The notes beneath the pieces are model-generated. The model saw nothing but the letters and a program-made list of their open reading frames with translations, was not told the origin of the DNA and ran no database searches. Shown here piece by piece: positions 2,256-29,678 of a stretch of 34,963 nucleotides of DNA (position 1 is the first letter of the stretch; each line of letters starts with the position of its first letter). The translations under genes and the position numbers were made by a program. The DNA is from Erysipelotrichaceae bacterium (GTDB lineage Bacteria > Bacillota_I > Bacilli_A > Erysipelotrichales > Erysipelotrichaceae): NCBI GenBank assembly GCA_030525525.1, contig JAUNEN010000014.1, positions 1 through 34,963 on the forward strand, read 5' to 3'.

Positions 2256-2321
2256 ATGTATGCAACGGATCATGAAGTCTCAGATTTCAGACAGCTTTCT
2301 TTCAAAACGATTTTTCCCTGA
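2256..2321 (+). pseudogene. Orphan SD-ATG with 21-codon ORF, possible 5' gene stub
   Basis: A good ribosome site (AAAAGGAGA) with proper spacing precedes an ATG at 2256. The frame runs MYATDHEV and then enters the antisense of the purF 3' end, stopping at 2319-2321. A strong start leading only into the tail of a convergent gene suggests the rest of the gene was lost by deletion. It could also be chance. Confidence 0.25.
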
Positions 2322-3686
2322 ATCATCGGGAACTTCGGTCGGATAGTTTCCCGCAAAGCAGGCGCTGCAGTAGGAATGATGCGTCAGCTCTTTCAGACTT
2401 TGAAGAGGCAGATAGCCGAGTGAATCCGCCCCGATCAGGCGGGCGGTTTCCTCAGCAGTGTTATGGGCGGCGATCAGGTTCTCACTGGAATCAATATCCG
2501 TTCCGTAATAACAGGGATAAAGAAACGGCGGTGCGCAGACGCGCATGTGGACTTCCTGAGCGCCGGCTTCCTTCAGAAGTGAAACAATCCGTCTGCATGT
2601 GGTGCCTCGGACGATGGAATCGTCAATCAGCACCACTTTTTTGTCTTTGACAGCATTCTCAATGACCGAAAGCTTAATCCGCACCTGGTCAGAACGGTGA
2701 TCCGGAGCGATGAATGTGCGGCCGATGTATTTGTTTTTGATCAGGATGTTTTCGTATGGAATGCCGGACGCCCGGCTGTAGCCGACTGCTGCGTCAAGAC
2801 CTGAGTCCGGCACGCCCGCCACAAGGTCCGCTGTGACCGGGTGGACATGGGCGAGAATTTCACCTGCCTTTAAACGTGATTCATGGACGGACATGCCGTC
2901 GATCACTGAATCAGGTCTGGCAAAATAGATATATTCGAAAATGCAGAATCTGCGCTCTGCCTGACGGCAGTGTTCTGTACGGGAAATGATTCCATGGTCT
3001 GTAAAGATGATGATCTCGCCGGGCATGACATCGCGGATCAGTGTTCCACCTGCGGCGGTGATTGCGCAGCTTTCAGAAGCTGCAAGATATGTGCCGTCTT
3101 CCCTTTTCCCGATGCAGAGCGGCCTGAAGCCGTAAGGGTCCCTGGCCGCGATCAGCTTGCGCGGAGACATTAGCACCAGTGAATAGGCGCCTTCAAATTC
3201 ATCCATCGCCGCGCTCAGGGAATCTTCAATGCTGGATGTCCGCAGTCTTTGACCGGTGATGAGATAGGCGATCGTTTCGGTATCGCTGGTCGTATGGAAA
3301 ATGGCGCCGGAAAGTTCCAGCCGGTCGCGCAGTTTCGCGGCATTGGCGAGGTTGCCGTTATGGGCGAGCGCCATTCTGCCCTTCTGATGATTGACAAGAA
3401 GCGGCTGCACATTGGCCGCGGCGGCACCGCCGGTTGTCGCATAGCGGGTATGGCCGACCGCCATACGGCCTTTGGGAAACGCGTTCAGAGCCTGTTCGCT
3501 GAATACTTCCGAAACAAGTCCCGGCGCCTTATGCGAAACAAAGACGCCGTCATCGTTGACAACAATTCCGCATCCTTCCTGGCCCCTGTGCTGCAAAGCA
3601 TACAGACCGGCGCAGACAATCCGGCTGACATCGCAGGACTGTTTTGCAAAGATGCCGAAAACGCCGCATTCTTCATGAATACTCAT
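2280..3686 (-). CDS. purF: Amidophosphoribosyltransferase PurF
   Basis: Catalyses the first committed step of purine synthesis: glutamine + PRPP to phosphoribosylamine. The N-terminal Ntn-hydrolase glutaminase begins after a short propeptide at the nucleophilic Cys of EECGVFGIF; HRGQEGCGI and NGNLANA are glutaminase motifs. The C-terminal phosphoribosyltransferase has the PRPP loop VVLIDDSIVRGTT. Cys residues in RFCIFEYIYF, RVCAPPF and YCSACFAGNYP match the [4Fe-4S] ligands of Bacillus-type PurF. Length (468 aa) is normal. I chose the second ATG (3686) because AAGGA then lies 7 nt upstream; the ATG at 3692 would be too close. It follows gltD by 16 nt and so appears to be the last gene of the GOGAT operon rather than part of a pur cluster. 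Confidence 0.95.
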   Translation of the reverse strand: MSIHEECGVFGIFAKQSCDVSRIVCAGLYALQHRGQEGCGIVVNDDGVFVSHKAPGLVSEVFSEQALNAFPKGRMAVGHTRYATTGGAAAANVQPLLVNHQKGRMALAHNGNLANAAKLRDRLELSGAIFHTTSDTETIAYLITGQRLRTSSIEDSLSAAMDEFEGAYSLVLMSPRKLIAARDPYGFRPLCIGKREDGTYLAASESCAITAAGGTLIRDVMPGEIIIFTDHGIISRTEHCRQAERRFCIFEYIYFARPDSVIDGMSVHESRLKAGEILAHVHPVTADLVAGVPDSGLDAAVGYSRASGIPYENILIKNKYIGRTFIAPDHRSDQVRIKLSVIENAVKDKKVVLIDDSIVRGTTCRRIVSLLKEAGAQEVHMRVCAPPFLYPCYYGTDIDSSENLIAAHNTAEETARLIGADSLGYLPLQSLKELTHHSYCSACFAGNYPTEVPDDSGKNRFERKLSEI

Positions 3687-3702
3687 CTGCATGTCCTTTC
3701 TT

Positions 3703-5154
3703 TCAGATCAGATTGGTATAGCCCATCAGCCATTCATCCACTTCCACGGCGCATTCCAGCCCTTCGCGGATGGCCCAGACAACCAGGGAAGCTCCCCTGT
3801 GCATGTCGCCGCAGCTGAAGATCCCGCTGATGTTTGATGCATAGCTGTTTTCCTTCGAGGCGACTGTATTGCGCCTGCTCAGCTCAATCCCTGCCGAAAG
3901 CGGCAGTTCTGTTTCGCATCCGGTGAATCCGGCGGCGATGATCAGCAGATCGCATGGCAGGATATCCCGTTCCTCACTGATGACCGGCCGGCCTTCTTCA
4001 AAGTGGATTTTCGCGGTTTCAACCGCCTTCAGGGCGCCGTCCTCTGTGATCAGATTTGTCAGTGTCGTGGACCAGATCCGCGGATCATTTCCATATAAGC
4101 AGATCGCTTCCTCCTGGCCGTAATCGGTTTTCAGCACTTTCGGCCACTCTGGCCAGGGATTGTTTTCCCTTCGTTCTTTTGGCGGAGAAGGCATCATTTC
4201 AATCTGCACAGCAGACGTGCACTTCTGGCGGATCGCTGTCGCAAGACAGTCATTTCCGGTATCCCCGCCGCCGAGGATCACCACGTTTCTGCCGGCCGCG
4301 CTGATTTCCGGAAGGCCCGGAAGGCTTCTGGTGGTTTCCGAAAGATACGTGATCGCCCTGATGACGCCCTTTGTGTTTTCAATGCCTTCAAGATCAGGCA
4401 TTCTGGCCTGTGAAGCCCCGCAGGCAAGAATCACGGCGTCATATTCCTCCTGCAGTTCTGCAAGAGAAATGTCCTTGCCGGCTGAAACGCCTGTGATAAA
4501 CCGAATTCCTTCTTCGGCCATCAGAGAGATACGGCGCTCCACAACCTTCTTGTCAAGTTTCATGTTGGGAATACCGTACATGAGAAGACCGCCCGGCTTC
4601 CCGCTTCTTTCATAGACTGTTACGTGATGGCCTCTTTGGTTCAGACGGTATGCCACCGCAAGACCGGCCGGGCCGCTGCCGATGACCGCCGCCTTTTTCG
4701 CTGTGCGCACCGGGATTTCTTCAGCCCGGATCAGGTTATTGGCAAAGCCGGTATCAGAAAGAAAGCGTTCGTTATCGCGGACTGTGACAGGTTCGCCATC
4801 GTATCCGTTGATACATGCCTTTTCGCATAAAGCCGGACATACCCTGCCGGTGAATTCGGGAAACGGGTTGGTTTTGAGCAATCTTCTTAAAGCATGTTCA
4901 TCATTGCCGCGGTAAATCTGATCATTCCATTCCGGGATCAGATTATGAAGCGGACAGCCGGTCACCATCCCGGAAAGACGGATGGCAGACTGGCAGTAAG
5001 GAACGCCGCAGTTCATACAGCGTGACGCCTGTTTCCGTCTTTCTTCCGTTTTTGAACAAAGGCGGATCTCGTCATAATCATTGATTCTTTCAGCGCATGC
5101 GCGCTCACTGTCTTCTCTTCTTGAATAAAGAAGGAATCCGTCCGGTTTTCCCAT
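3703..5154 (-). CDS. gltD: Glutamate synthase small (beta) subunit
   Basis: Passes electrons from NAD(P)H through FAD and iron-sulfur clusters to the large subunit. The N-terminal Cys motifs (CMNCGVPYCQ, CPALCEKAC) bind [4Fe-4S] clusters. The FAD-binding Rossmann motif is VIGSGPAGLAVAYRL and the NAD(P)H one is VVILGGGDTGNDC. The C-terminal GIFSCGDMHRGASLVVWAI motif closes the FAD site. Length 483 aa is normal. The start is the ATG at 5154, which overlaps the gltB stop as TGATG behind GGAGG; the same frame is open further upstream, but that extension lies inside gltB and is not protein-like. Translational coupling to gltB fits the fixed subunit stoichiometry. Confidence 0.96.
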   Translation of the reverse strand: MGKPDGFLLYSRREDSERACAERINDYDEIRLCSKTEERRKQASRCMNCGVPYCQSAIRLSGMVTGCPLHNLIPEWNDQIYRGNDEHALRRLLKTNPFPEFTGRVCPALCEKACINGYDGEPVTVRDNERFLSDTGFANNLIRAEEIPVRTAKKAAVIGSGPAGLAVAYRLNQRGHHVTVYERSGKPGGLLMYGIPNMKLDKKVVERRISLMAEEGIRFITGVSAGKDISLAELQEEYDAVILACGASQARMPDLEGIENTKGVIRAITYLSETTRSLPGLPEISAAGRNVVILGGGDTGNDCLATAIRQKCTSAVQIEMMPSPPKERRENNPWPEWPKVLKTDYGQEEAICLYGNDPRIWSTTLTNLITEDGALKAVETAKIHFEEGRPVISEERDILPCDLLIIAAGFTGCETELPLSAGIELSRRNTVASKENSYASNISGIFSCGDMHRGASLVVWAIREGLECAVEVDEWLMGYTNLI

Positions 5155-8100
5155 CACACACCTCCATGTGCCTGCGTCAGTTCGCTGAACGCCGCCATTT
5201 CGGCGTTCTGACGGCTGATGCCCTGTTCTTCGTAATAAGAGATTCTCTCCACAATTGCCTGATATGGCGCCGCGATGATTTTCTTGAAATGCGGCAGCCA
5301 TTCCTCTTCATTGTCGAGAATCATCTTCGCTCTCTTCGATCCGGTTTCCCGGTAATAGTCTTCCAGGATTTCCCTGAGCTGGTGAATATCGTATTTGTCA
5401 CTGACTTCCTTTAAAACCAGGGAACCGGAGCTGATCTGGCGGTACAGGACGTGATGTTCATCGAGCACATACGCGACGCCGCCGCTCATGCCGGCCGCGA
5501 AGTTTTTGCCGGTTTCTCCGAGGATGACCGCGATTCCGCCGGTCATATATTCAAGCCCATGGTCGCCGCACCCTTCGCACACAGCCCGGGCACCGCTGTT
5601 GCGCACACAGAAACGCTCACCGGCAATCCCGGCGAAATATGCGGTTCCCGATGTCGCGCCGTACAGGGCGACATTGCCGGCGATGATATTCTGATCCCAG
5701 GCAAAGGAAGCTTCCTTTTTCGGCACAATCACAATCTTTCCGCCGCTGAGACCCTTGCCGACGTAATCGTTGGCATCGCCATGGAGTCTGAGTGTCAGAC
5801 CGGCAGGAATAAAGGCGCCGAAGGACTGGCCGGCCGAGCCGGTGCATTCCACAGTCCAGGTATCGTCCGCCTCCTTTTCTCTGCGGGTGCGGATAATCTC
5901 TGAACCAAGCAGTGTTCCGACGGTGCGGTCGGATGCGCTGAGCTGAATGTCAATATGTCGTTTCTTCTTTGTTTTCAGACAGGCACTGTGCCATGGAATC
6001 AATGTGCGCATGTCGACTGTTTTTTCAAGTGAGAAGTCAAACTCATGCCCCTTTTCATAATGAACCGGCAGGCTTTCCTTCAGAACAGAGGCATACGGCA
6101 GATCGGATTGCGTCACAAGGAGATCGCTTCTGCCGATCAGTTCATCCATTGTCCTGATTCCAAGAGACGACATGATATGGCGGACTTCTTCTGCGATCAT
6201 CAGCATATAGTTCATGACATGTTCCGGTTTTCCTTTGAAGCGGGCACGCAGCGTTTTGTTCTGGGTCGCAATGCCGAACGGACAGGTGTCTTTTGAACAG
6301 ACCCGCATCATCATACAGCCCATTGAGACAAGCGGTCCGCTGGCAAAGCCGAATTCCTCCGCTCCCAGCATTGCCGCGATCACCACATCACGGCCGCTCA
6401 TGAGTTTGCCGTCTGTCTGCAGAATCACGCGCTCACGGAGATTGCTGGCGGTTAAAGCGCGGTGGGCTTCAATCACACCCAGCTCCCATGGCAGGCCGGC
6501 ATGATGAATCGAGCTGAACGGAGCCGCACCTGTGCCGCCGTCATTGGATGAAATCAGAATGACACCGGCTCCGGCCTTGGCAACGCCGCAGGCGATGGTG
6601 CCGACTCCCTTCTCGCTGACCAGCTTGACGGAAATCCGGGCGTCCCGGTTCGCGTTTTTCAGATCATAAATCAGCTGGGCAAGATCCTCGATCGAATAGA
6701 TGTCATGATGCGGAGGCGGGGAAATCAGAGCCACGCCGGGCGTTGAACAGCGGGTGGCAGCCACCCATGGATATACCTTGGCGGCAGGCAGATGTCCGCC
6801 TTCTCCGGGTTTTGCGCCCTGAGCCATCTTGATCTGGATTTCTTTTGCACTGTCAAGATATTCCAGATTGACGCCAAAACGGCCGGAAGCGACCTGTTTG
6901 ACGGCAGAGCTGCGGATGGTATTGAAACGGGCGGGATCTTCGCCGCCTTCACCTGTGTTGGACCGCGCCCCGAGACGGTTCATGGCTTCTGCCATGGTTT
7001 CATGGGCTTCCTTTGAAATGGAGCCGAAGGACATAGCACCGGTATTGAAGCGCTTCACGATCTCTTCCGCCGCTTCGACTTCTTCCAGCGGGACAGGCGT
7101 CTGATCCTTTGCGAAAGAACAGGTATCGCGCAGATGGTGCGGCTTCATCGCATACAGAAGCTCTGTATAGTGTTCAAAGTCTTCATACTTCCCGCTTCTG
7201 CACGCTTTCTGCAGAGCGACAATCACCTCGGGCGAATAGAGATGGCTTTCCGCGGCGCGATTGGAGCGCAGGCCATGGCTGCCGATGCTGTCGAGGGTGG
7301 TGTCTGTCTGTAATCCCAGCGGGTCAAAGGCATGTGAGTGGCGGTATAAGATGTCTTCTTCAATGTCTTTGATGGTGATCGGACCGCCGTCGGAAACCGT
7401 GCCGCAGAAGTATCTGTCAATCACTTCGTCTGAAAGGCCGAGGGATTCAAAGATTCTGGCGGACTGGTAGGACTGAATTGTGGAAACACCCATCTTGGCG
7501 GCGATCCTGACAATCCCGTCCCGGATGGCGCTGTTGTAATCATCAATCGCCGTGTGGTAATCCTTGTCCAGAATGCCGAGATCAATCAGCTCGACTATGC
7601 ATTCCTGGGCAAGGTACGGATGAACCGCCCGGGCCCCGAAGCCCAGCAGCGCAGCACATTCGTGAACAGTGCATGGTTCGCCGCTTTCGACAATCAGGGA
7701 AACCCTGGTGCATTTTTTGGTGCGCACCATGTGCTGCTCCACGGCGGAAACCGCCAGCAGGCACGGGATGGGCAGATGGTTTTCATCAATGCCGCGGTCG
7801 CTTAAAACAAGAATATTGGCACCGGCTGTATAGGCTCTGTCGCAGCTGAAACAAAGCTGCTCCACCGCTTTTTCAAGCGAGGTATTGGGATAGTACAGCA
7901 TACTGATCACGGCACATTTCAGCTTCTGCTGATTCAGAGCCTTGATTTTCATCATATCGGTTCCGGACAGGATCGGGTTGCTGATTTCAAGAACCGCACA
8001 GTTGGTGCTTTTTTCTTCGAGGAGATTTCCTTCCGAGCCAAGATAGACAGCGGTATCCGTTACGATCTTTTCACGGATGGAATCAATCGGCGGATTGGTA

Positions 8101-9638
8101 ACCTGGGCAAAGCGCTGATAAAAATAATCCGTGAGTTTCACATGGGAGTGTGAATACATCGCCAGCGGCGTGTCATGGCCCATCGAACCGGTCGGTTCCA
8201 CGCCGTTTTCCGCCATGTGATAAAGGACGTCCATCACATCCTCATAGGAATAGCCGAAGACCTTGTAAAGCTTGTCACGCATCTTCTGATCATGGGAAGG
8301 AAGCCGGTGATTGGGAATCGGCAGATCGGCGAGCCGTTTCAGATGAAGACTCAGCCATTCACCGTACGGGTTGGCATGGATATAGGTGTTCTTGCATTCT
8401 TCGTCTTCGATGATCCTTTTCTTCACTGTATCGGCCAGAAGAATCCTGCCCGGCATCAGACGTGATTTCTTCACAATATGCTCTTCTTCAAAATCCAGTA
8501 CACCGACTTCCGAGGAGAGAATAAGCCGCTGATCATCTGTGACATAGTATCTGGCCGGACGCAGACCGTTTCTGTCCAGGCAGGCACCCAGTCTTTCCCC
8601 GTCAGTGAAGATCACCGCGGCCGGACCGTCCCAGGGTTCCATCATGGTCGCATAATAATGATAAAAATCCTTTTTGTCCGGGGAGATCGAATTGTTGTTC
8701 CGCCATGGTTCGGGAATCATGATCATTAACGCCAGCGGCAGGTCGATACCGCTCATATACATGAATTCCAGAGTGTTATCGACCATGGCGGAGTCTGATC
8801 CGTCATCACTGATGACCGGATATATTCTGTCAATGTACGGCTCACTCAAGGCGGAATGCATGGTTTCCTCCCGTGCCAGCATCCGGTCATGATTGCCGGA
8901 AATGGTGTTGATTTCACCGTTATGGGCGATCATCCGGTACGGATGGGCCCGGTTCCAGCTGGGATTGGTGTTGGTCGAAAAGCGGGAATGGACAACCGCA
9001 ATTGCTGTTTCAAAATCCTCGGACTGCAGGTCTTCGTAAAACAGCCGCAGCTGCGTGACAAGAAACATGCCTTTATAAACAATCGTCCGGGAAGACAGGG
9101 AAACAATATAGGTGCTGTCATTGCCCTGTTCGAATTCTCTTCTTGCCACATAAAGAAGCCGGTCAAAGGCCAGCCCTTTTTCACAGTCCGCCGGCTTTGC
9201 CACGAAAACCTGACGGATGGCGGGCATACTGTCGATCGCCTTCTTTCCCAGAATGTCACTTCTGACGGGCACATCGCGCCAGCCGAGAACCTTCATTCCG
9301 TACTTTTCGGCGATGACGCCGAACATCCGGCAGGAAATCACCTGGGAAACCTGGGTGCCCTGAAAAAAGAACATGCCGATGCCGTACTCCCCTTCATCAG
9401 GCAGTTCAATTTCTTCATCATGAGCTGCCTTCTGAAAAAAGCGGTGAGAGATTTGCAGAAGGATCCCGACACCGTCGCCGACCTCGCCGCTGGCATCCTT
9501 GCCGGCCCTGTGGCCCAGATGCTCTACAATTTTCAAAGCATCGTTGACTGCTTCATGGGTGCGATGACCGTCGATATTGACAACCGCGCCGATCCCGCAC
9601 GCATCACTGTCTCTTGTTTCACTCATTCTCATAGCCAT
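5154..9638 (-). CDS. gltB: Glutamate synthase large (alpha) subunit
   Basis: Converts glutamine + 2-oxoglutarate to two glutamates. Domain order: a short propeptide of about 13 residues; a class II glutaminase starting at the nucleophile of DACGIGAVVNIDGH; a central domain; the FMN-binding synthase domain (FNTGAMSFGSISKEAHE, then RSNTGEGGEDPARF); a [3Fe-4S] site with Cys residues in GCMMMRVCSKDTCPFGIATQ; and the C-terminal GXGXG beta-helix (GLSGGKIVIVPKK, GYMTGG-type repeats). Length 1494 aa is typical. Starts at 9638, 9632 and 9626 are all possible; the first has AGGAG only 4 nt away. It lies 71 nt downstream of the ANTAR gene and is coupled to gltD. All expected catalytic motifs are present. 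Confidence 0.97.
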   Translation of the reverse strand: MAMRMSETRDSDACGIGAVVNIDGHRTHEAVNDALKIVEHLGHRAGKDASGEVGDGVGILLQISHRFFQKAAHDEEIELPDEGEYGIGMFFFQGTQVSQVISCRMFGVIAEKYGMKVLGWRDVPVRSDILGKKAIDSMPAIRQVFVAKPADCEKGLAFDRLLYVARREFEQGNDSTYIVSLSSRTIVYKGMFLVTQLRLFYEDLQSEDFETAIAVVHSRFSTNTNPSWNRAHPYRMIAHNGEINTISGNHDRMLAREETMHSALSEPYIDRIYPVISDDGSDSAMVDNTLEFMYMSGIDLPLALMIMIPEPWRNNNSISPDKKDFYHYYATMMEPWDGPAAVIFTDGERLGACLDRNGLRPARYYVTDDQRLILSSEVGVLDFEEEHIVKKSRLMPGRILLADTVKKRIIEDEECKNTYIHANPYGEWLSLHLKRLADLPIPNHRLPSHDQKMRDKLYKVFGYSYEDVMDVLYHMAENGVEPTGSMGHDTPLAMYSHSHVKLTDYFYQRFAQVTNPPIDSIREKIVTDTAVYLGSEGNLLEEKSTNCAVLEISNPILSGTDMMKIKALNQQKLKCAVISMLYYPNTSLEKAVEQLCFSCDRAYTAGANILVLSDRGIDENHLPIPCLLAVSAVEQHMVRTKKCTRVSLIVESGEPCTVHECAALLGFGARAVHPYLAQECIVELIDLGILDKDYHTAIDDYNSAIRDGIVRIAAKMGVSTIQSYQSARIFESLGLSDEVIDRYFCGTVSDGGPITIKDIEEDILYRHSHAFDPLGLQTDTTLDSIGSHGLRSNRAAESHLYSPEVIVALQKACRSGKYEDFEHYTELLYAMKPHHLRDTCSFAKDQTPVPLEEVEAAEEIVKRFNTGAMSFGSISKEAHETMAEAMNRLGARSNTGEGGEDPARFNTIRSSAVKQVASGRFGVNLEYLDSAKEIQIKMAQGAKPGEGGHLPAAKVYPWVAATRCSTPGVALISPPPHHDIYSIEDLAQLIYDLKNANRDARISVKLVSEKGVGTIACGVAKAGAGVILISSNDGGTGAAPFSSIHHAGLPWELGVIEAHRALTASNLRERVILQTDGKLMSGRDVVIAAMLGAEEFGFASGPLVSMGCMMMRVCSKDTCPFGIATQNKTLRARFKGKPEHVMNYMLMIAEEVRHIMSSLGIRTMDELIGRSDLLVTQSDLPYASVLKESLPVHYEKGHEFDFSLEKTVDMRTLIPWHSACLKTKKKRHIDIQLSASDRTVGTLLGSEIIRTRREKEADDTWTVECTGSAGQSFGAFIPAGLTLRLHGDANDYVGKGLSGGKIVIVPKKEASFAWDQNIIAGNVALYGATSGTAYFAGIAGERFCVRNSGARAVCEGCGDHGLEYMTGGIAVILGETGKNFAAGMSGGVAYVLDEHHVLYRQISSGSLVLKEVSDKYDIHQLREILEDYYRETGSKRAKMILDNEEEWLPHFKKIIAAPYQAIVERISYYEEQGISRQNAEMAAFSELTQAHGGV

Positions 9639-9709: not shown

Positions 9710-10240
9710 TTATTTTTGTGAATCTTCTTTGATTATCCTCTCTGCCACTTTTGCCATCGGCAGTCCGAGGTTCATGCTGAGATGCTGCAGATAGCGGTGT
9801 GCTTCCGTTTCATCCATCTGTTTCTGTTCCATGATGAGTTCTTTGGCTTTCGAAATCATCTGCCGGTCGGATTGCGGCCGGCGGGGTATTCTTTGATAAT
9901 GCAGCTGCTCCAGCATGTCAGCCCAGGCGATCAGAACAGATTTGGTGACAGGCATTGCCTGGCGGAAGATCTTTTCCGAACTGATCTGGCTGAACTGATC
10001 CGGCCGGCAGAGACAAAGGATTTCCACATGTTCATTCAGATCGGCTGCCACTTCATCGAGCGATCTGTTTCTCAGCCTGACGCCGGCAATGAGGATGCCG
10101 TCCTGGATCAGACGGAATGTGCGTCTGACTTCATCCGCGGATGAACAGGTGCGGATCACATCATAGCCGCTTTCCCGCAGAAGCGAGGCGATTCTCGCGG
10201 CAGTATCCGTGTCATGGAACGCGACTGCGAATTTTGTCAT
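9710..10240 (-). CDS. ANTAR-domain RNA-binding antiterminator with pseudo-receiver
   Basis: The 176-residue protein has a receiver-like N-terminus (about 1-115) and a C-terminal ANTAR three-helix domain (about 125-170: ISKAKELIMEQKQMDETEAH, then YLQHLSMNLGLPMAKVAERI). ANTAR proteins bind nascent leader RNA and prevent termination. Canonical members are activated by Asp phosphorylation, but the beta-3 position that should hold the Asp reads ILIAGVRLRN, so this receiver probably cannot be phosphorylated. The gene starts 8 nt after the glnA stop with a weak ribosome site, implying coupling, and lies immediately before gltB. Its position between GS and GOGAT genes, plus terminator-like leaders on glnA and amt, makes it the likely nitrogen regulator, as proposed for ANTAR proteins beside glnA in clostridia. 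Confidence 0.9.
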   Translation of the reverse strand: MTKFAVAFHDTDTAARIASLLRESGYDVIRTCSSADEVRRTFRLIQDGILIAGVRLRNRSLDEVAADLNEHVEILCLCRPDQFSQISSEKIFRQAMPVTKSVLIAWADMLEQLHYQRIPRRPQSDRQMISKAKELIMEQKQMDETEAHRYLQHLSMNLGLPMAKVAERIIKEDSQK

Positions 10241-10248
10241 AACAGTTC

Positions 10249-11577
10249 TCAGTACATCATGAGATATTCATTGATTTCCCATTCGGAAACCGATGTGCGG
10301 TAAGCGTCCCATTCGGCATACTTGCCGGCGCTGTACTGGCTTGTGATATGAGAGCCCAGCGTATCACAGACAACTTTGTCCTCCAGCATGAGATCAACTG
10401 CTTCCTTCAGGTTGGCCGGCAGACTTTCAATGCCTCTTTCCTTTCTTTCCGCTTCGTCCATCACGAAGATGTTTTCAAGGACTTCTTCCGGCGGTGTCAG
10501 ACCGCGCTCAATGCCGTCAAGGCCGGCGGCCAGACAGACTGCCAGCTCCAGATACGGGTTGCAGGAAGGATCCGGACATCTCAGCTCAACTCTTGTCGCC
10601 TGTCCGCGCGCTGCCGGAATACGGATCAGAGCGGAACGGTTGGAAGCGGACCAGGAGATATAGCACGGTGCTTCATAACCGGGTACCAGACGCTTGTAGC
10701 TGTTGACCAGCGGGTTGGTAACAGCGCTCATGGAACGGATATGTTCGAGGATGCCGGCAATGAAGGCATAGGCTTCTTTCGAAAGGCCTCTTTGATCAGA
10801 GGGATCGGCGAAGATGTTCACACCGTCTTTGAAGAGTGACATGTTTGTGTGCATGCCGCTGCCGTTGATGCCGTAGATCGGTTTGGGCATGAAGGTCGCA
10901 TGCAGGCCGTTCTTCTGGGCGATTGTCTTGACCGCCAGCTTGAATGTCATGACATTGTCGGCTGTTCTTAAGGCGTCGCCGTATTTGAAGTCGATTTCAT
11001 GCTGACCGCGGGCCACTTCGTGATGGCTGGCTTCTACTTCATATCCCATCTTTTCAAGCATGAGGCAGATTTCGCGTCTGGTGGATCCGCCGTGATCAAG
11101 CGGGTCAAGATCGAAATAGCCGGCGTCATCGCTTGTCTTTGTGGTCGGCTGTCCGTTTTCATCTGTCTCGAACAGGAAGAATTCACATTCCGGACCGACG
11201 TTGAAGGAATAGCCCTTTTCCGCCGCTTTGGCGAGCGCCTTTTTCAGGGTGCTGCGGGGATCGCCGGCAAACGGTGTTCCGTCCGGGTTGTAAACATCGC
11301 AGATCAGTCTGGCGACGCGGGCCTGGGAAGGTCTCCAGGGAAGCACGGCGTAAGAATCGAGATCGGGATGCAGGTACATGTCGGATTCATTGATTCTGAC
11401 AAAGCCTTCAATTGAGCTGCCGTCGATCATGATTTCGTTGTTGACGGCCTTATTGATCTGAGAAGCGGTGATCGCGACGTTTTTCAGTCTTCCGAAAATG
11501 TCGGTGAACTGCATGCGGATAAATTCCACATCGCCTTCTTCCACCATTCTGATGATGTCTTCTTTTGTGTAGCTCAT
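10249..11577 (-). CDS. glnA: Glutamine synthetase, type I (alpha)
   Basis: ATP-dependent ligation of ammonium to glutamate. The N-terminal beta-grasp contains DIFGRLKNVAI; the catalytic domain has the metal-binding GPECEFFLF, the HHEVARGQHEIDF strand, NGSGMHTNMSLF, and the flap and Glu loop KRLVPGYEAPCYISWS. Length (442 aa) and the lack of the adenylylation-site region place it in the GSI-alpha class, which is feedback-controlled rather than adenylylated. The start is the ATG at 11577 behind AAGGAGG; the longer open frame upstream is leader sequence containing a terminator hairpin. It has its own promoter in the gap after dapL, and its mRNA probably continues into the ANTAR regulator and GOGAT genes. 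Confidence 0.97.
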   Translation of the reverse strand: MSYTKEDIIRMVEEGDVEFIRMQFTDIFGRLKNVAITASQINKAVNNEIMIDGSSIEGFVRINESDMYLHPDLDSYAVLPWRPSQARVARLICDVYNPDGTPFAGDPRSTLKKALAKAAEKGYSFNVGPECEFFLFETDENGQPTTKTSDDAGYFDLDPLDHGGSTRREICLMLEKMGYEVEASHHEVARGQHEIDFKYGDALRTADNVMTFKLAVKTIAQKNGLHATFMPKPIYGINGSGMHTNMSLFKDGVNIFADPSDQRGLSKEAYAFIAGILEHIRSMSAVTNPLVNSYKRLVPGYEAPCYISWSASNRSALIRIPAARGQATRVELRCPDPSCNPYLELAVCLAAGLDGIERGLTPPEEVLENIFVMDEAERKERGIESLPANLKEAVDLMLEDKVVCDTLGSHITSQYSAGKYAEWDAYRTSVSEWEINEYLMMY

Positions 11578-11599
11578 ACTCTTCTTCCTCCTTGATTTG

Positions 11600-11646
11600 A
11601 AAAAACAAAAGAGCAAAGGAAACCCGCTGCCGGGCACCTTTGCTCT
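11600..11646 (-). promoter_or_regulatory. glnA leader attenuator (terminator hairpin with shared motif)
   Basis: Perfect 10-bp stem AGAGCAAAGG (11646-11637) / CCTTTGCTCT (11619-11610) followed by TTTGTTTTTT, between the glnA promoter and its ribosome site. The 17-nt loop holds a smaller CCCG/CGGG hairpin. The 5' arm plus loop contains GCAAAGGTGCCC, matching 11 of 12 positions of the amt leader. A full intrinsic terminator directly before an essential biosynthetic gene implies conditional readthrough. No classical tandem hexaloop ANTAR target was identified. Confidence 0.75.
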
Positions 11647-11653
11647 AACAGTG

Positions 11654-11685
11654 ATTATAGTAAAGAATGAAATGTAAATTGTCAA
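11654..11685 (-). promoter_or_regulatory. Probable glnA promoter
   Basis: Minus-strand TTGACA (11685-11680) and a consensus TATAAT (11659-11654) in the dapL-glnA gap. The 20-bp spacer is longer than optimal, so an activator or an alternative -35 may be used. The predicted RNA would begin about 2 nt before the attenuator stem. Confidence 0.55.
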
Positions 11686-11694
11686 CAATCTTTT

Positions 11695-12891
11695 TCAGAA
11701 ATATTTTTCATTTCTTAACCTGATGATTCTTCTGCCCGCTTCTTCGACATCCTCTTCCTCAGCGAACATGGAGAAGCGGATCCAGCCTTCCCCGCTTTCA
11801 CCGAAGCCGGCGCCGGGCGTCGCAACGATCTGTGCCTGTTTCAGCAGGATATCAAAGGTTTCCCAGCTGCCTGAGCTGCAAGGACATTTCATCCAGATAT
11901 AAGGCGAGTTTTTCCCGCCGGCATAGGAAAGACCGGCTTCATCCAGCGCCTGCATAAATGTCTTTGCGTTTCTGCGGTAGACTTCATGAAGCAGACTGAC
12001 TTCCTTCTGCCCTTCTTCGCTGAACACGGCCAGCGCGCCTTTTTGGAGAATGTACGAAACCCCGTTGGTACGGGTTGTGCGGTTGCGCACCCACATCGCA
12101 TTGAGCGAAAGCCCGTCCCGCACAAGATCCATCGGGATCACGGTGTAGCCGCATCTGGTTCCGGTGAAGCCGGCGGTTTTGGACAGGGAACTGATTTCGA
12201 TCGCGCACTTCTTTGCGCCTTCAAGCTCATAAATGCTGCGGGGAATATTCTCTTGACAGACGAATGATTCATAGGCGGCGTCAAAAAGAATGACCGATTC
12301 TGTCCGGATAGCGTAGGCAATCCATTTCTCAAGGCATTCTTTTGTGCATACGGCACCGGTGGGATTGTCCGGCGAACAGAGATAAATCAAAGCCGTCAGG
12401 TCCTCTTCAGGCACAAGCGGCTGAAAGCCGTTTTCAATGTCAGTACCGGGAAAGATGATTTCTCTGCCGTCCATGAGATTGGCGTCGGCGTAAGCCGGAT
12501 AGGCAGGTTCGGGAATCATCGCCGGCAGGCTGCGCTCAAACAGATGGAGAAGATCTCCAAGTTCATCGCTGGCACCGCTCGAAACAAAGACTTCTTCCGG
12601 ATTCACCGGAATGTTCCGCTTCCGATACCAGTCCGCGATTGCTTTTCGCAAAGCCGGATCGCCGCATTCGGGCATGTAGCCGTGAAAAGTTTCGGCATGA
12701 GCCTGCTCTTCAACCGCTTCATGAAGCGCCTTGATCACCGAAGGCGTCAATGGCTGAGTCACATCGCCGATGCCAAGGCGCAGAACTTTCTTTCCCGGAT
12801 TTTCCTTCTGCCATTCCTCAATCCGTCTGCGGATATCCGCGAAAAGATATGATTCCTTTACCTTCATGTAGTTAAGATTCATACCGGTCAT
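11695..12891 (-). CDS. dapL: LL-diaminopimelate aminotransferase
   Basis: PLP-dependent class I/II aminotransferase converting tetrahydrodipicolinate directly to LL-diaminopimelate, bypassing the succinyl and acetyl branches. Family motifs: RLGIGDVTQPL at the N-terminus, VSSGASDELGDLL, LIYLCSPDNPTGAV, the PLP-lysine motif SSLSKTAGFTGTRCGY, and C-terminal ATPGAGFGESGEGWIRFS. Length 398 aa fits. The ATG overlaps the dapF stop as ATGA, indicating translational coupling; a second in-frame ATG three codons later is possible. The adjacent epimerase completes the step to meso-DAP, which supports DapL over a generic aminotransferase. It lies in the asnB transcript controlled by the asparagine T-box. 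Confidence 0.92.
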   Translation of the reverse strand: MTGMNLNYMKVKESYLFADIRRRIEEWQKENPGKKVLRLGIGDVTQPLTPSVIKALHEAVEEQAHAETFHGYMPECGDPALRKAIADWYRKRNIPVNPEEVFVSSGASDELGDLLHLFERSLPAMIPEPAYPAYADANLMDGREIIFPGTDIENGFQPLVPEEDLTALIYLCSPDNPTGAVCTKECLEKWIAYAIRTESVILFDAAYESFVCQENIPRSIYELEGAKKCAIEISSLSKTAGFTGTRCGYTVIPMDLVRDGLSLNAMWVRNRTTRTNGVSYILQKGALAVFSEEGQKEVSLLHEVYRRNAKTFMQALDEAGLSYAGGKNSPYIWMKCPCSSGSWETFDILLKQAQIVATPGAGFGESGEGWIRFSMFAEEEDVEEAGRRIIRLRNEKYF

Positions 12892-13691
12892 TTCTTTCTC
12901 ACCTCTTCCATTTCCGCTTCAAAGACAAATTCAGCTGGTCCTTTCATCCAGAATTCCCCGTTTTCTGCTTTTGTAAACTCCAGGATGCCGCCATCCAGTT
13001 CAACAATGACTGTCCCCTTCTCATTCACTGCGCCGGTAAAGATGGCAGCTGCCGCGCTGGCTGCAGCACCGGTGCCGCAGGCCATTGTCACCCCGCTGCC
13101 TCTTTCCCATACCCGCATACGCAGGGTGCCGTTATTGCGGACATTCACAAATTCACAGTTGACGCCGCCCGGAAATAACGGATGGTGCTCAATGAGGGAG
13201 CCGATCTTCTCCGGCAGTGAAAGCCCCTTTTCGTCAGTGAAGATAACGGCATGGGGATTGCCGGTACTGACCGGATACAGAGTGTATGTCTGCTCACCGG
13301 CTTCAACGGTCACTGCCGGGCTGACTGTGACGGTTCCCATGTTGACGGAAACCGAAGTGACTTTGCCCTCATGAACATCCAGACGCAGCCGGCGGATACC
13401 TGAGCGGGTCTCGATCAGAAGATCTGTTTTATCACTCAGGCCTTTTTCATAGATATATTTTCCGACACAGCGGATGCCGTTTCCGCACATGAGTGCTTCG
13501 GAACCGTCAGCGTTGAAGATGCGCATTCCGAAATCGGCTGTCTGTGATTCTGTTATGTAGATCAGGCCGTCAGAGCCGACGCCGTAATGGCGGTCGGAAA
13601 GAAGAATGCTCAGATCAGAAACATCGGCGGGCACCTCTTCATGGAAATAGAGGTAATCATTGCCAAGCCCCTGCATTTTTGTGATTTTCAT
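12888..13691 (-). CDS. dapF: Diaminopimelate epimerase
   Basis: Epimerises LL-diaminopimelate to meso-diaminopimelate for lysine and peptidoglycan. The two catalytic cysteines are visible at about residues 69 (LMCGNGIRCVG) and 205 (VTMACGTGAAAS); the N-terminal KMQGLGNDYLYF and the STGNPHAV motif are conserved. Length 267 aa is normal. I take the ATG at 13691 (MKITKMQ); the in-frame region upstream overlaps asnB and is not family-like. It begins 16 nt after the asnB stop and overlaps dapL by 4 nt, so asnB-dapF-dapL form one operon. Confidence 0.95.
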   Translation of the reverse strand: MKITKMQGLGNDYLYFHEEVPADVSDLSILLSDRHYGVGSDGLIYITESQTADFGMRIFNADGSEALMCGNGIRCVGKYIYEKGLSDKTDLLIETRSGIRRLRLDVHEGKVTSVSVNMGTVTVSPAVTVEAGEQTYTLYPVSTGNPHAVIFTDEKGLSLPEKIGSLIEHHPLFPGGVNCEFVNVRNNGTLRMRVWERGSGVTMACGTGAAASAAAAIFTGAVNEKGTVIVELDGGILEFTKAENGEFWMKGPAEFVFEAEMEEVRKK

Positions 13692-13707
13692 CCTGCCGTC
13701 CCCCTTT

Positions 13708-15291
13708 TCAGATTCCGCTGGCGCCGTAGTTGGAAAGCACCCGGGCGCTGGGATCATTGACATTGCAGCCCTGCCATTCTTTGTTCGGCATCCAGAAATC
13801 AGTGATCATTTCCGCTTTGCCCGGATAGTATTTTTCAAACAGTTCACGGTAAAGAAGGCTTTCTTTCGTAAATGGTGCGCAGTATGTATAGGCAGCGGCC
13901 TTCTCTCTGAATTCCTCATCGGTATACAGAGTCTCTGCGTACTGTTTGATGTCATCGACCATGGAATGGCCGACAGCGTCTGAGAATGCTGCCTTTTGGC
14001 GCCATAGGATTTCATCAGGAAGAATATGATCGTCTGCGAATGCTTTTCTGAGCAGATACTTGCCCATGTGATGGCGGTTCATTTTGAGGACCGGATCAAT
14101 CGCCATGGCGTAGCGGACAAATTTGAGATCGCCGAACGGAACCCTTGCCTCCAGGGAATTGAAGGAAATACAGCGGTCGGCCCGCAAAACGTCGTACATA
14201 TGCAGCTCACGGATCCGTTTTTCCGCTTCTTTCTGGAAGGCGTTGGCGTCCGGGGCAAAATCAGTATATTTGTATCCGAAAAGCTCATCGGAGATTTCGC
14301 CGGTCAGAAGAACACGTATATCCGTGTTTTCATGGATATACTTGCAGACCAGATACATGCCCATGGATGCCCGGATGGTTGTGATGTCCCATGTGCCCAG
14401 CATTCTGACAGCTTCTTCCAGGGAAGAAATCACCTGCTGTTCTGTCATGATGACTTCGGTATGGTCAGAGCCGATATAATCCGCCGCTTTGCGCGCGTAT
14501 CTCAGATCAATCGCGTCGGTATCCATACCGATGGCAAATGTCCGGATGGGATGGTCCGTGAGCTTCTGGGCAATCGCGCAGACCAGTGAAGAATCCAGTC
14601 CGCCGGAGAGCAGAAACCCGACCGGCGCATCGGCATCGAGCCTTTTTTCCACCGCTTCGCAAAGCAGTCTGTTCAGTTTACGGGAAATGGCCTCTTCATC
14701 CTTCATCGTGAACTGGCTGACGGCAGCCGGATCGCAATAGCGTACAAATCCGTCTTTTTCACTCCAGTAGTGGCCGGGCGGAAACGGCATGATGGTTTCG
14801 CATAAGGCTGTCAGGTTTTTCGGCTCGCTCGCAAAGGCGTATGAACCGTCTGTAAGTCTTCCGTAATACAGCGGCCTGATTCCGATCGGATCCCGGGCGG
14901 CAATGATCATGTCTTCCTTATGATCGTAGATGATCATGGCAAATTCCGCGTCAAGGGTCTTGAAGAGATCGGTTCCGTATTCGTAATACAGCGGCAGGAT
15001 GATTTCACAGTCAGAACCGGAGACAAGCGGAAAGTCCGCCTTCAGTCTTTCGCGGACCGGTCTAAAGCCGTAGAGCTCGCCATTGCATACGGCATAGTCG
15101 CCGTTCATCTCAAACGGCTGCATACCTTTTTCATCCAGCCCCATAATGGCTAAACGGTGGAAGCCCATCCAGCCTTTCGGAATTTCAGTCAGGCGGCTCA
15201 TATCCGGGCCCCTGGATTTTGTTTCATCAAAACATTTTTTTAATGTGTCATAAGGAACATCCTTTGAAAGTACAGTGAAGATCGAACACAT
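13708..15291 (-). CDS. asnB: Asparagine synthetase (glutamine-hydrolysing)
   Basis: Makes asparagine from aspartate, ATP and glutamine. Residue 2 is the glutaminase nucleophile (MCSIFTVLSKD), followed by class II amidotransferase motifs (RLAIMGL, NGELYG, GSDCEIILPLY, ARDPIGIRPLYYG). The synthetase domain has the PP-loop LLSGGLDSSLVCAIA at about residue 230 and ends with a synthetase-type SDAVGHSMVDDIK region. Length 527 aa is typical of the AsnB class. The start at 15291 is fixed by the required Cys2 and by GGAGG 9 nt upstream; the longer open frame crosses the T-box and is not coding. First gene of the asnB-dapF-dapL operon. Confidence 0.96.
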   Translation of the reverse strand: MCSIFTVLSKDVPYDTLKKCFDETKSRGPDMSRLTEIPKGWMGFHRLAIMGLDEKGMQPFEMNGDYAVCNGELYGFRPVRERLKADFPLVSGSDCEIILPLYYEYGTDLFKTLDAEFAMIIYDHKEDMIIAARDPIGIRPLYYGRLTDGSYAFASEPKNLTALCETIMPFPPGHYWSEKDGFVRYCDPAAVSQFTMKDEEAISRKLNRLLCEAVEKRLDADAPVGFLLSGGLDSSLVCAIAQKLTDHPIRTFAIGMDTDAIDLRYARKAADYIGSDHTEVIMTEQQVISSLEEAVRMLGTWDITTIRASMGMYLVCKYIHENTDIRVLLTGEISDELFGYKYTDFAPDANAFQKEAEKRIRELHMYDVLRADRCISFNSLEARVPFGDLKFVRYAMAIDPVLKMNRHHMGKYLLRKAFADDHILPDEILWRQKAAFSDAVGHSMVDDIKQYAETLYTDEEFREKAAAYTYCAPFTKESLLYRELFEKYYPGKAEMITDFWMPNKEWQGCNVNDPSARVLSNYGASGI

Positions 15292-15300
15292 AAAACGGCA

Positions 15301-15556
15301 CCTCCGGGTATCGGCAGTCATCCTGAAATGATTCAGGACGAAGGCTGCCTCTCCGTGGTGCCACCTGATTTGCTTCTCATAGGTTCCATCAAACCTGTGC
15401 GGGGATAACGTGCCGCTCTTCACGCCTTCCCTACTGATCACCTTTGACGTTCAGGTCGGACTTGGAAGTGTTTTTCCATACCGGTTTCATGCGGGATTCC
15501 CACCAGCGCCCGCTCTCTTGAAATGAAATAACGGATGTACTCCTCTTCCGCTCCGC
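15301..15556 (-). promoter_or_regulatory. Asparagine T-box riboswitch
   Basis: The T-box core AGGTGGCACCACGG lies at 15366-15353. Stem I starts near 15555: GGAAG pairs with CUUCC (15468-15464), CAUCCG with CGGUAUG, and the specifier loop between them contains AAC (15472-15470) followed by A just before the closing stem. AAC is an asparagine codon. UGGC in the T-box complements GCCA, the 3' end of a tRNA with discriminator G, as in tRNA-Asn. Distal-loop features (AGAGAG, GGTGGGAATCC) are present. Downstream, a long hairpin (GGCAG...CTGCC around TCCTGAA/TTCAGGA) is not followed by a U run, while GGCACC of the T-box can pair with GGTGCC overlapping the asnB SD. Control may therefore be translational, or by a weak terminator ending GTTTT. 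Confidence 0.95.
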
Positions 15557-15573
15557 TTTTTTTGTATGCATGC

Positions 15574-15603
15574 ATTCTATCTTCAGTTCCGCCTTCCCGT
15601 CAA
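15574..15603 (-). promoter_or_regulatory. asnB operon promoter
   Basis: Minus strand: -35 TTGACG (15603-15598), 18-bp spacer, -10 TAGAAT (15579-15574). The predicted start near 15567 lies about 11 nt before the T-box stem I base, which fits. Confidence 0.7.
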
Positions 15604-15738
15604 TCTTTTTTCATTTATTTTCTGAAATTTTTATCTTGATTTTACATTTTTTGAAATTGTTTTCAGCTGTTCCCTTAATAAGGAAAACAGGCGGTTCATT
15701 GTGCTTCAGAAGTGTTGAAAAGGCCTGAAAAAAAAGAG

Positions 15739-15767
15739 TTGACACCGGATTTTGCGGTGTGTAATAT
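15739..15767 (+). promoter_or_regulatory. amt promoter with internal inverted repeat
   Basis: Consensus -35 TTGACA (15739-15744), 17-bp spacer, -10 TAATAT (15762-15767). The spacer carries the perfect inverted repeat ACACCG (15742-15747) / CGGTGT (15755-15760), a possible repressor site. Predicted transcription start about 15774. Confidence 0.8.
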
Positions 15768-15777
15768 GTACGCATTG

Positions 15778-15837
15778 AGGCAAGGGTGCCCATAAGGTTC
15801 CCCTGCCTTTTCTTGTTATACAGGCTGATGGGGAACC
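15778..15837 (+). promoter_or_regulatory. amt leader attenuator with mutually exclusive hairpins
   Basis: Structure 1 is terminator-like: AGGCA.GGG (15778-15786) pairs with CCC.TGCCT (15800-15808) with one mismatch, followed by TTTTCTT. Structure 2 is a perfect 8-bp pairing of GGTTCCCC (15796-15803) with GGGGAACC (15830-15837). Both need the CCCC at 15800-15803, so they exclude each other. The hairpin begins about 4 nt after the predicted start and contains GCAAGGGTGCCC (15780-15791), nearly identical to the glnA leader. Confidence 0.65.
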
Positions 15838-15842
15838 GCACT

Positions 15843-15854
15843 TCACATATGTGA
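15843..15854 (+). promoter_or_regulatory. Perfect 12-bp palindrome upstream of amt
   Basis: TCACATATGTGA is fully self-complementary. It lies in the amt 5' untranslated region, between the attenuator and the ribosome site. It could be an operator or simply chance; no partner site was found. Confidence 0.3.
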
Positions 15855-15888
15855 CCAAAGATCTTTCAAACGATTTAAGGAGGAAAGA

Positions 15889-17634
15889 ATGATGGATGAA
15901 ACACTGCGGACACTCGTAAGCTCAGAAGTATTCAGTGTCTGGTTCCTGGCCGGAGCTGCGCTGGTCTTCTGGATGCAGGCCGGCTTTGCCATGGTCGAGG
16001 CCGGCTTCACAAGAGCCAAAAACACCGGCAACATTCTGATGAAGAACCTGATGGATTTCTGCATCGGAACAATCGTCTTCATACTGATCGGATACGGCCT
16101 TCTAATGGGAGAAGACCTGGCCGGCTTCATCGGCAGACCCGGCTTCGATCTGCTGAGCGCCTATCAGGAATTTGATTATTCCGCCTTTGTCTTCAACCTT
16201 GTCTTCTGTGCCACCACCGCGACGATTGTCTCCGGCGCGATGGCAGAAAGGACAAAGTTCCTGTCATACTGTGTCTATTCAGCTGTTATTTCAGCTCTGA
16301 TCTATCCCATTGAGGCGCACTGGATCTGGGGCGGCGGCTGGCTTTCACAGATCGGCTTCCATGATTTTGCCGGCTCCTGCGCCATTCATATGGTCGGCGG
16401 CATTTCCGCTTTGATCGGTGCGAAGATACTGGGAGCGAGAATCGGCAAATACCGTAAGGACAGTGACGGGAAGATTGTCAAAGTCAACGCGATTCCCGGC
16501 CATAACATTACATTCGGCGCATTGGGATGCTTTATTCTCTGGGTAGGATGGTATGGATTCAACGGAGCGGCAGCGACAGATGTGCCGCAGCTTGGCTCCA
16601 TCTTCCTGACAACAACCATTGCTCCTTCTGCCGCGACGGTCGCCTGTATGATCTTCACCTGGCTGCGCTATGGCAAACCGGATGTCTCGATGTGCCTCAA
16701 CGCTTCCCTGGCCGGACTTGTGGCGATTACCGCCGGCTGCGATGTGACCGACGCCTTCGGTTCTCTTGTCATCGGCACTGCCGCCGGACTGCTGGTTGTC
16801 TTCGGCGTCTGGCTGCTGGACAGTGTCCTGCATATCGATGATCCGGTCGGCGCGGTCGCGGTCCACTTCTGCAACGGTCTTTGGGGTACGATTGCCGTCG
16901 GTCTGTTTGCGACGGACACAGCTCCTGCCTATAGCATCGCAGATCAAAGCGGCGCTGTGATGAAGGGTCTCTTCTATGGCGGAGGTCTGAAGCTTCTCGG
17001 CATTCAGCTCAGCGGTGTTGTGAGTGTGGCGTTATGGACAGCTGTTACCATGACCCTTGTCTTTCTGGCCATTAAAGCCGTCTTTGGTCTGCGGGTCAGC
17101 CGTGAAGAAGAACAGCTCGGCCTTGATGTGACGGAACATGGTCTGACAAGTGCCTACGCCGGATTTGCGATGACGCCGGAATATCTTGAGGAAGGTCCTG
17201 TCACTGAAACCGTTCCGGTGATTTCTGAAAGCGAACCGGTGCCGGTTTATACAAAGAAAGAATCTGATGCCGGCACACCGAAGATTTCCAAGGTCGAAAT
17301 CGTCTGCCGCGAGGCTTATGTGGAGCCGCTCAAAAACGCGCTTGTGGGCATCGGTATTACCGGCATGACAATCACCCATGTGCTTGGCTGCGGCGCCCAG
17401 AAAGGCAAGCCTGAATATTACAGAGGCGTTGCGACCGAAGCCAGCCTGCTGCCCAAGGTGCAGTTTGATATTGTCGTTTCCAAAGTACCTGTGCGCTCCG
17501 TCATTGAAACCGCGAAGAAAGTTCTCTACACAGGTCATATCGGAGACGGCAAGATCTTTGTCTATGACGTTGAAAATGTCATCAAGGTCCGTACATCCGA
17601 GGAAGGCTATGACGCCTTGCAGGATGTTGAATAG
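15889..17634 (+). CDS. amt: Ammonium transporter with fused C-terminal PII domain
   Basis: Residues about 1-410 form a complete Amt channel of eleven predicted membrane spans. DFAGSCAIHMVGG and AVAVHFCNGLWGT hold the twin pore histidines and the structural Asp, and WIWGGGWL is also conserved. After a Pro/Glu/Val-rich linker, residues 465-581 are a full PII protein (KVEIVCREAYVEPLKNAL, GITGMTITHVLG, GDGKIFVYDVENVIKVRTSE). In the T-loop (KGKPEYYRGVATEA) the position of the E. coli GlnB uridylylated Tyr51 is Thr (about residue 516), so classical uridylylation is unlikely. Free PII proteins plug Amt pores according to ATP/ADP and 2-oxoglutarate; here the regulator is tethered. Start 15889 or 15892, behind AAGGAGG. 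Divergent from the asnB operon, single gene, with its own promoter, leader and terminator. Confidence 0.95.
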   Translation: MMDETLRTLVSSEVFSVWFLAGAALVFWMQAGFAMVEAGFTRAKNTGNILMKNLMDFCIGTIVFILIGYGLLMGEDLAGFIGRPGFDLLSAYQEFDYSAFVFNLVFCATTATIVSGAMAERTKFLSYCVYSAVISALIYPIEAHWIWGGGWLSQIGFHDFAGSCAIHMVGGISALIGAKILGARIGKYRKDSDGKIVKVNAIPGHNITFGALGCFILWVGWYGFNGAAATDVPQLGSIFLTTTIAPSAATVACMIFTWLRYGKPDVSMCLNASLAGLVAITAGCDVTDAFGSLVIGTAAGLLVVFGVWLLDSVLHIDDPVGAVAVHFCNGLWGTIAVGLFATDTAPAYSIADQSGAVMKGLFYGGGLKLLGIQLSGVVSVALWTAVTMTLVFLAIKAVFGLRVSREEEQLGLDVTEHGLTSAYAGFAMTPEYLEEGPVTETVPVISESEPVPVYTKKESDAGTPKISKVEIVCREAYVEPLKNALVGIGITGMTITHVLGCGAQKGKPEYYRGVATEASLLPKVQFDIVVSKVPVRSVIETAKKVLYTGHIGDGKIFVYDVENVIKVRTSEEGYDALQDVE

Positions 17635-29551: not shown

Positions 29552-29580
29552 TTGTCAAAACACGCAAATCATATTATCTT
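29552..29580 (+). promoter_or_regulatory. Candidate promoter of the fluoride-riboswitch transcript
   Basis: TTGTCA (29552-29557), 17-bp spacer, TATCTT (29575-29580). The riboswitch aptamer begins a few nucleotides after the predicted start. Confidence 0.5.
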
Positions 29581-29585
29581 AATAA

Positions 29586-29678
29586 CCGGGAATGATGTTC
29601 TCCCTGGGGTGACCCGAACCGCTTTTGAAAGCTGATGACGTCTGTATGGTTTTTTCATGCAGAAGAATCAGCTTTTTT
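29586..29678 (+). promoter_or_regulatory. Fluoride (crcB) riboswitch with terminator
   Basis: Aptamer features match the crcB motif: GGGA...TCCC (29588-29604) enclosing ATGATGTTC, then AACCGC, then GCTGATGAC. GATGTT (29594-29599) can pair with GACGTC (29637-29642), equivalent to GGAGTT/GACTCC in known examples, which is compensatory support. An extra small GGG/CCC hairpin is inserted before AACCGC. The expression platform is a terminator AAAGCTGAT (29628-29636) / ATCAGCTTT (29667-29675) ending in T6; it uses the 3' side of the aptamer, so fluoride binding should permit readthrough. Confidence 0.92.

Follow-up and report, generated by a model that had tools for sequence, protein, structure and literature searches.

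We found that the glnA and amt genes in the window (the whole 34,963-nucleotide stretch of DNA that was analysed) lie behind leaders that, judged from sequence, are highly likely to be attenuators controlled by an ANTAR protein through a single hexaloop: a hairpin at the start of the transcript, once held by the protein, would block an intrinsic terminator. The family of ANTAR target RNAs is known; what appears to be new is that its two-loop feature, which was looked for, is absent. The parts of the two leaders are given below, where R1 is a covariance model of promoter plus hairpin, trained on ANTAR-linked leaders that include both window leaders.

11654 to 11685, minus strand: glnA promoter, with −35 TTGACA at 11685-11680 and −10 region TACTAT/TATAAT at 11662-11654 (from the sequence and an aligned promoter block of 40 leaders)
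11632 to 11645, minus strand: glnA hexaloop hairpin GAGC-AAAGGT-GCCC, loop at 11641-11636 (R1 match 11687-11628, 52.2 bits)
11600 to 11646, minus strand: glnA intrinsic terminator with the hexaloop as its 5′ arm; AGAGCAAAGG (11646-11637) pairs with CCTTTGCTCT (11619-11610), U-tract to 11600 (fold −25.2 kcal/mol)
15739 to 15767, plus strand: amt promoter, with −35 TTGACA at 15739-15744 and −10 TAATAT at 15762-15767 (from the sequence and alignment)
15779 to 15790, plus strand: amt hexaloop hairpin GGC-AAGGGT-GCC, loop at 15782-15787 (R1 match 15737-15795, 42.1 bits)
15778 to 15815, plus strand: amt intrinsic terminator; AGGCAAGGG (15778-15786) pairs with CCCCTGCCT (15800-15808), then TTTTCTT (fold −17.6 kcal/mol)

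A preliminary description of this DNA had noticed a 12-mer common to both leaders, and its coordinates and identity were borne out: GCAAGGGTGCCC (amt, 15780-15791, plus strand) and GCAAAGGTGCCC (glnA, 11643-11632, minus strand) are identical at 11 of 12 positions. As it had also stated, the 12-mer supplies the 5′ arm of a terminator-like hairpin near the predicted start in both leaders, and both loops continue to GGTT. In the RNA the loop reads AA(A/G)GGU, six bases closed by C-G directly behind the predicted transcription start; both promoters have the form TTGACA-17-TA..AT, with the start predicted a few bases before the motif. The core CAARGGTGC occurs four times in the window versus 0.55 expected from shuffles, and a promoter precedes only the glnA and amt copies. 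One core match at 32991-33012 (model R2, E 0.086), which has no promoter, was taken as chance. The glnA hairpin is weak in the window's genus because of an A-C mismatch at pair 3, found in the glnA leaders of that genus. The bases of each hairpin also serve as the 5′ arm of its terminator, so that hairpin and terminator are mutually exclusive.

In the mechanism that we propose, transcription would start a few bases before the AARGGU hairpin, which has A at loop position 1 and G at position 4 (A1/G4) and a closing C-G pair. By default the loop, together with one strand of the stem or both, would pair downstream into the intrinsic terminator, and transcription would stop. The ANTAR protein, presumably active under nitrogen or glutamine limitation, would grip the hexaloop hairpin on its emergence and so remove the 5′ arm of the terminator, and the polymerase would read into glnA-ANTAR-gltB-gltD-purF and into amt. 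We infer binding, antitermination and the direction of the response from what is visible in the sequences: promoter position, hairpin, covariation, terminator overlap, co-occurrence with the ANTAR gene, and nitrogen and glutamine targets.

In relatives of the same genus the glnA and amt leaders carry the same element. We sought the ANTAR gene in all 316 genomes of the order Erysipelotrichales and took the surroundings of 60 such genes; weak matches (profile positions 10-35, in frames of about 300 amino acids) were set aside as probably false. A search with an alignment of nine ANTAR sequences returned close kin only; the organisms of the nearest ones are MAGs of rumen and gut that bear the label Solobacterium or Erysipelotrichaceae. 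An unbiased scan near ANTAR genes, which accepted hexaloop hairpins of any loop sequence provided that they lay before an open frame and overlapped one arm of a terminator, gave 35 A1/G4 hairpins with stems of at least 5 bp, against no more than 5 in each of the 15 other classes. A second scan required the core C-AANGRN-G behind a promoter, thereby fixing the closing C-G, and made no demand on stem pairing. Beside ANTAR genes it returned 50 promoter-linked copies, all with the second pair formed and all with a T-rich tract behind. Permuted cores yielded 0-5 sites in 18 of 20 cases; the remaining two, which resemble the real core, gave 10 and 12. A looser pattern over the genus, CAARGGTG...CTTTT, was dropped as too noisy, its matches being mostly coding.

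Loop positions A1, A2 and G4 and the closing C-G are invariant in the 45 distinct hairpins (A1 and G4 being fixed by the search pattern), and stem pairs 2-4 covary. Changes on both sides were found in 41 cells versus 17.4 after shuffling (none of 500 shuffles as high), and the covariation score was 0.531, compared with 0.257 for shuffles and no more than 0.221 when the partners were slid; relatedness of the genomes inflates such values. The stem thus passed the covariation test proposed in the preliminary description. Standard pairs make up 88% of the cells of the four stem pairs, and the stems vary widely (GGC/GCC, GAAC/GTTC, ACAGC/GCTGT, AAAGAC/GTCTTT, ACGGC/GTCGT): the sequence is free but paired over at least 3 bp, save for the A-C mismatch noted above.

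The distance from the end of the −10 box to loop A1 is mostly 14-16 bases. In 46 of 48 leaders the loop is overlapped by the terminator fold, whose mean is −23.2 kcal/mol, against −2.7 kcal/mol for the hairpin. All copies are strong terminators placed where the message begins, as would be expected of constitutive leader terminators, or of 5′ stabilising hairpins, that work without a trans-acting regulator. A simple terminator, however, gives no reason for a conserved loop and a compensatory stem in the very hairpin that excludes it, and we give this explanation next to no credence.

The presence of the element goes with that of the ANTAR gene. In the 3.5-Mb genome of the window R1 has exactly two matches, the glnA and amt leaders (both in the training set), a pair well removed from coincidence. 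Across the order it has matches in 64 of 316 genomes: 55 of the 66 with an ANTAR gene versus 9 of the 250 others (p=1e-40, for kin genomes that are not independent and include many MAGs), which leaves 11 ANTAR genomes without a match at threshold. Six genomes (G018, G064, G015, G120, G130 and G204) carry the element and gave no ANTAR match, most of these assemblies being incomplete or contaminated; the leaders are real upstream of glutamine synthetase III (GSIII) and amt in G015 and G064, and upstream of amt in G018. Two of the nine genomes outside the ANTAR set, G210 and G211, have false matches, which were rejected because they lie at the start of an unrelated coding sequence and have no terminator. 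Outside the order, in a 392-genome sample of the phylum, real matches again fell in ANTAR-positive genomes.

Targets away from the ANTAR locus and outside the training set include amt, GSIII, gdhA, carA, ilvE and the genes for a GATase and an amino-acid binding protein; together they form a nitrogen and glutamine regulon. Further matches upstream of nitrogen genes, by which the preliminary description had wanted the element judged, were accordingly found in relatives (amt, GSIII, gdhA, carA and ilvE). Copies of the element also lie ahead of pyrG, purC, the gene of a protein with a class-II glutamine amidotransferase domain, and dapF (L131 9854, L162 8224, L144 14993, L128 988, L149 13314, L154 15072, L256 and L152 11941, where L numbers denote loci), which extends the regulon to nucleotide and other glutamine-using pathways.

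Co-occurrence is no proof of binding, and another RNA-binding protein might read the hexaloop while the ANTAR gene is merely co-inherited in a nitrogen gene cluster. Glutamine synthetase and ANTAR genes are neighbours at 54 of 60 loci, so that any factor linked to the locus would co-occur with the element. Yet the A1/G4 hexaloop with C-G closure is the published signature of ANTAR targets, and a casual look noticed no other gene with the same distribution; we therefore regard a different reader as very unlikely.

ANTAR targets have been defined as dual hairpins with A1/G4 loops, and changes to the linker damage induction (Ramesh 2012, PMC3369931). The EutV-RNA structure reduced the binding site to one hexaloop, regarded as no more than the minimal site, yet antitermination is said to need contact to each loop of the pair (Walshe 2022, PMC8934654). 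This requirement of EutV for both hexaloops (PMC3369931, PMC8934654) is at odds with the single-loop leaders described here, and actinobacterial ANTAR RNAs are likewise dual (PMC8164766). We found no second A1/G4 hexaloop in the window glnA and amt leaders. Among 48 leaders searched for two hexaloops with a short linker, a second A1/G4 hexaloop (stem of at least 3 bp, before the end of the U-tract) was present in 6 versus 2.9 expected by chance, and 42 had a single hexaloop only. The statement in the preliminary description that this is not a standard two-hexaloop ANTAR target therefore holds for the window leaders and for most of their relatives.

We also considered a canonical dual target whose second loop was missed, being non-standard or upstream of the assumed start. 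Possible second A1/G4 loops do stand right behind the first at L146 and L151 (and, by eye, L118), and three glnA leaders outside the order (G638, G363 and G357, G numbers denoting genomes) have two hexaloops with an 18-nt linker. A second loop is, however, present in only 6 of the 48 leaders, where chance would give 2.9, and absent from the two in the window, and TTGACA/TATAAT lies directly upstream: because the loop begins 14-16 bases after the −10 box, there is no room for an earlier one. We consider a missed second loop unlikely. In some amt leaders (L145 at 14459/14401, L174 at 6350/6285, L030 and L047) two complete attenuators follow one another, and each of them has a separate terminator.

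That the targets are glutamine and ammonium genes, and that the leader overlaps a terminator, would also suit a metabolite-binding RNA, such as a glutamine riboswitch, controlling the terminator directly. The only Rfam match in the window at the gathering threshold was a fluoride riboswitch away from both leaders, and a permissive scan of 11500-16000 gave neither a glutamine riboswitch nor any family for the leader, in agreement with the earlier remark that the cyanobacterial glutamine riboswitch does not match. The conserved part is only a hairpin of about 14 nt, and its presence follows the ANTAR gene; direct metabolite sensing thus seems extremely unlikely. Taken together, the A1/G4 loop, the ANTAR gene behind glnA and the co-occurrence of the two make the element very probably an ANTAR antiterminator rather than a riboswitch. 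The preliminary description had offered a new RNA target or riboswitch; the structured, covarying regulatory leader stands, and the riboswitch finds no support, given the short A1/G4 hairpin that tracks the ANTAR gene.

In amt, the preliminary description had also proposed a competing helix that would break the terminator.

15796 to 15803 and 15830 to 15837, plus strand: amt alternative helix, GGTTCCCC with GGGGAACC, a perfect 8 bp extended by TGCC/AGGC

The helix is real: it folds at −19.1 kcal/mol in the window (shuffle p=0.002), is stronger than its shuffled versions in the amt leaders of close relatives, 6 of 6 (p from 0 to 0.046), and is kept with base changes in the amt leaders of G018, G064, G007 and G001. 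It was looked for in more distant amt leaders and none was seen. Its 3′ strand lies downstream of the U-tract. Because that strand is made after the U-tract, the helix cannot be the primary antiterminator, and we rejected it in this role; of the earlier claim, the perfect helix conserved in close relatives stands and the breaking of the terminator does not. The structure that excludes the terminator is the hexaloop hairpin itself. The alternative helix is probably a read-through structure and might, as a guess, prevent a transcript that has passed the terminator from falling back into the terminator fold.

The proposed reader of both leaders is encoded behind the first of them, in a same-strand run of glnA, the ANTAR gene, gltB, a gltD-like open reading frame (named from its sequence) and purF.

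10249 to 11577, minus strand: glnA, type I glutamine synthetase (TIGR00653, 561 bits; 12 of 12 checked catalytic residues kept)
9710 to 10240, minus strand: ANTAR protein, proposed binder of both leaders, directly behind glnA (PF03861, E=2.8e-16)
5154 to 9638, minus strand: gltB, glutamate synthase large subunit, behind glnA-ANTAR (NF008730, 1545 bits)
2280 to 3692, minus strand: purF, glutamine-using amidophosphoribosyltransferase, last gene of the run (TIGR01134, 489 bits)
15889 to 17634, plus strand: amt, proposed target, for an ammonium transporter with a fused PII domain (fusion read from the close homologue L145)

The L145 homologue has both PF00909 and PF00543, and the window Amt was matched to its relatives at the protein level. 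gltB has no leader element of its own, the R1 matches in the window being two only.

The ANTAR domain of the window protein scores 59.5 bits versus a curated cut-off of 27.3. The protein has no Response_reg match, and in the alignment its receiver-like domain lacks the phospho-acceptor Asp; by its sequence it is of the AmiR-like pseudo-receiver type, unlike the two-component type of EutV. Regulation through a partner, as in AmiR, is likely for a protein that lacks this Asp. The predicted structure (AlphaFold, pLDDT 94.9) has EutV bound to RNA as its best PDB match, and the fold also matches Rv1626 and AmiR; the high full-length rmsd reflects domain placement. The RNA contacts published for EutV, mapped onto the alignment by hand, are kept at Arg142, Lys147, Lys149, Glu160, Met172 and Asn173 and lost at Lys143, Arg168, Arg175 and Arg177. 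Tyr164, which stacks on G4 in EutV, is His here and invariant as such in 19 homologues.

The ANTAR gene may itself be controlled through hexaloops. A hexaloop-terminator lies directly upstream of it at L150 (8907), L158 (8649) and L172 (7398), which we read as putative transcriptional self-control. At L246-L249 (also L284, L285, L288 and L289) the Shine-Dalgarno sequence of the ANTAR gene, AAAGGG, is a C-G closed A1/G4 hexaloop, as in atacac-AAAGGG-gtgtat AGT ATG in four genomes outside the order; translational self-control is possible.

A candidate for the regulating partner is glutamine synthetase. At 54 of 60 loci the ANTAR gene directly adjoins, on the same strand, a gene for type I glutamine synthetase. 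At 26 loci from outside the genus (among them L117, L120, L122-L124, L127-L130, L139-L143, L145, L147, L149, L151, L154, L156, L161, L169, L171, L173 and L175), the flap Glu (EAP) of the homologue beside the ANTAR gene is Lys (KAP) in an otherwise recognisable protein of about 390-430 amino acids. These homologues have presumably lost catalysis and are probable sensor pseudo-enzymes. By gene adjacency and the precedent of Bacillus TnrA, glutamine synthetase or its homologue would pass the nitrogen signal to the receiver-like domain. The wider reading, that one 5′-end hexaloop suffices throughout the order, that an often disabled glutamine synthetase (Glu to Lys) senses, and that it and the ANTAR protein replace GlnR/TnrA, is tentative, and we give it slightly less than an even chance.

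The leaders resemble the attenuators of EutV/eut (Enterococcus faecalis), NasR/nasF and AmiR/amiE in having an A1/G4 six-base loop with a conserved closing pair and a stem kept by pairing, in excluding an intrinsic terminator, in the presence of an encoded ANTAR protein and in serving nitrogen genes. Unlike those, which have two hexaloops with a linker of 5-12 nt, they have one, which stands at the very start of the transcript and doubles as the 5′ arm of the terminator. The window order, glnA-ANTAR-gltB, can be set beside that of Clostridium, which we take to be glnA-nitR-gltAB. NitR of Clostridium saccharobutylicum, likewise an ANTAR regulator with GS/GOGAT genes, antiterminates these genes according to a review (PMC6316151, citing Stutz 2007). 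Beyond that system, the order described here adds amt, GSIII, gdhA, pyrG, purC, carA and ilvE as targets and often has a glutamine synthetase homologue whose flap is changed. As in the GlnA-TnrA/GlnR control of Bacillus subtilis (PMC6316151), it may be glutamine synthetase itself that senses nitrogen on behalf of the regulator, its contact with the ANTAR protein being suggested here only by gene adjacency; TnrA and GlnR act on DNA, whereas the ANTAR protein would act on RNA by antitermination. The common ground with the cyanobacterial glutamine riboswitches (glnA RNA, Downstream-peptide) is a leader RNA that controls glutamine metabolism, but the leaders described here have no Rfam match and no conserved pocket.

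In the published model an ANTAR dimer must engage two hexaloops one after the other before it can overcome the terminator. The one-loop version is seemingly kept over 23 genera, at a transcript start where no second loop can precede, and no description of a single-hexaloop attenuator at a transcript start was found in the literature searched, most subscription papers lying outside that search. Searches for dual motifs will have missed such single-loop regulons. The leaders offer naturally occurring one-loop targets on which the action of ANTAR proteins can be tested; they would also explain nitrogen control in poorly studied rumen and gut Firmicutes and suggest that the sensor is likely a homologue of glutamine synthetase.

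The window holds two other leader RNAs. A T-box-like leader (15562-15331, minus strand; 80.2 bits, under the Rfam gathering score of 93) precedes an asparagine-synthase-like open reading frame (13708-15441), whose listed GTG start is probably too early. The fluoride riboswitch mentioned above (29579-29651, plus strand; 47.1 bits) lies upstream of a cation/proton-antiporter-like gene.
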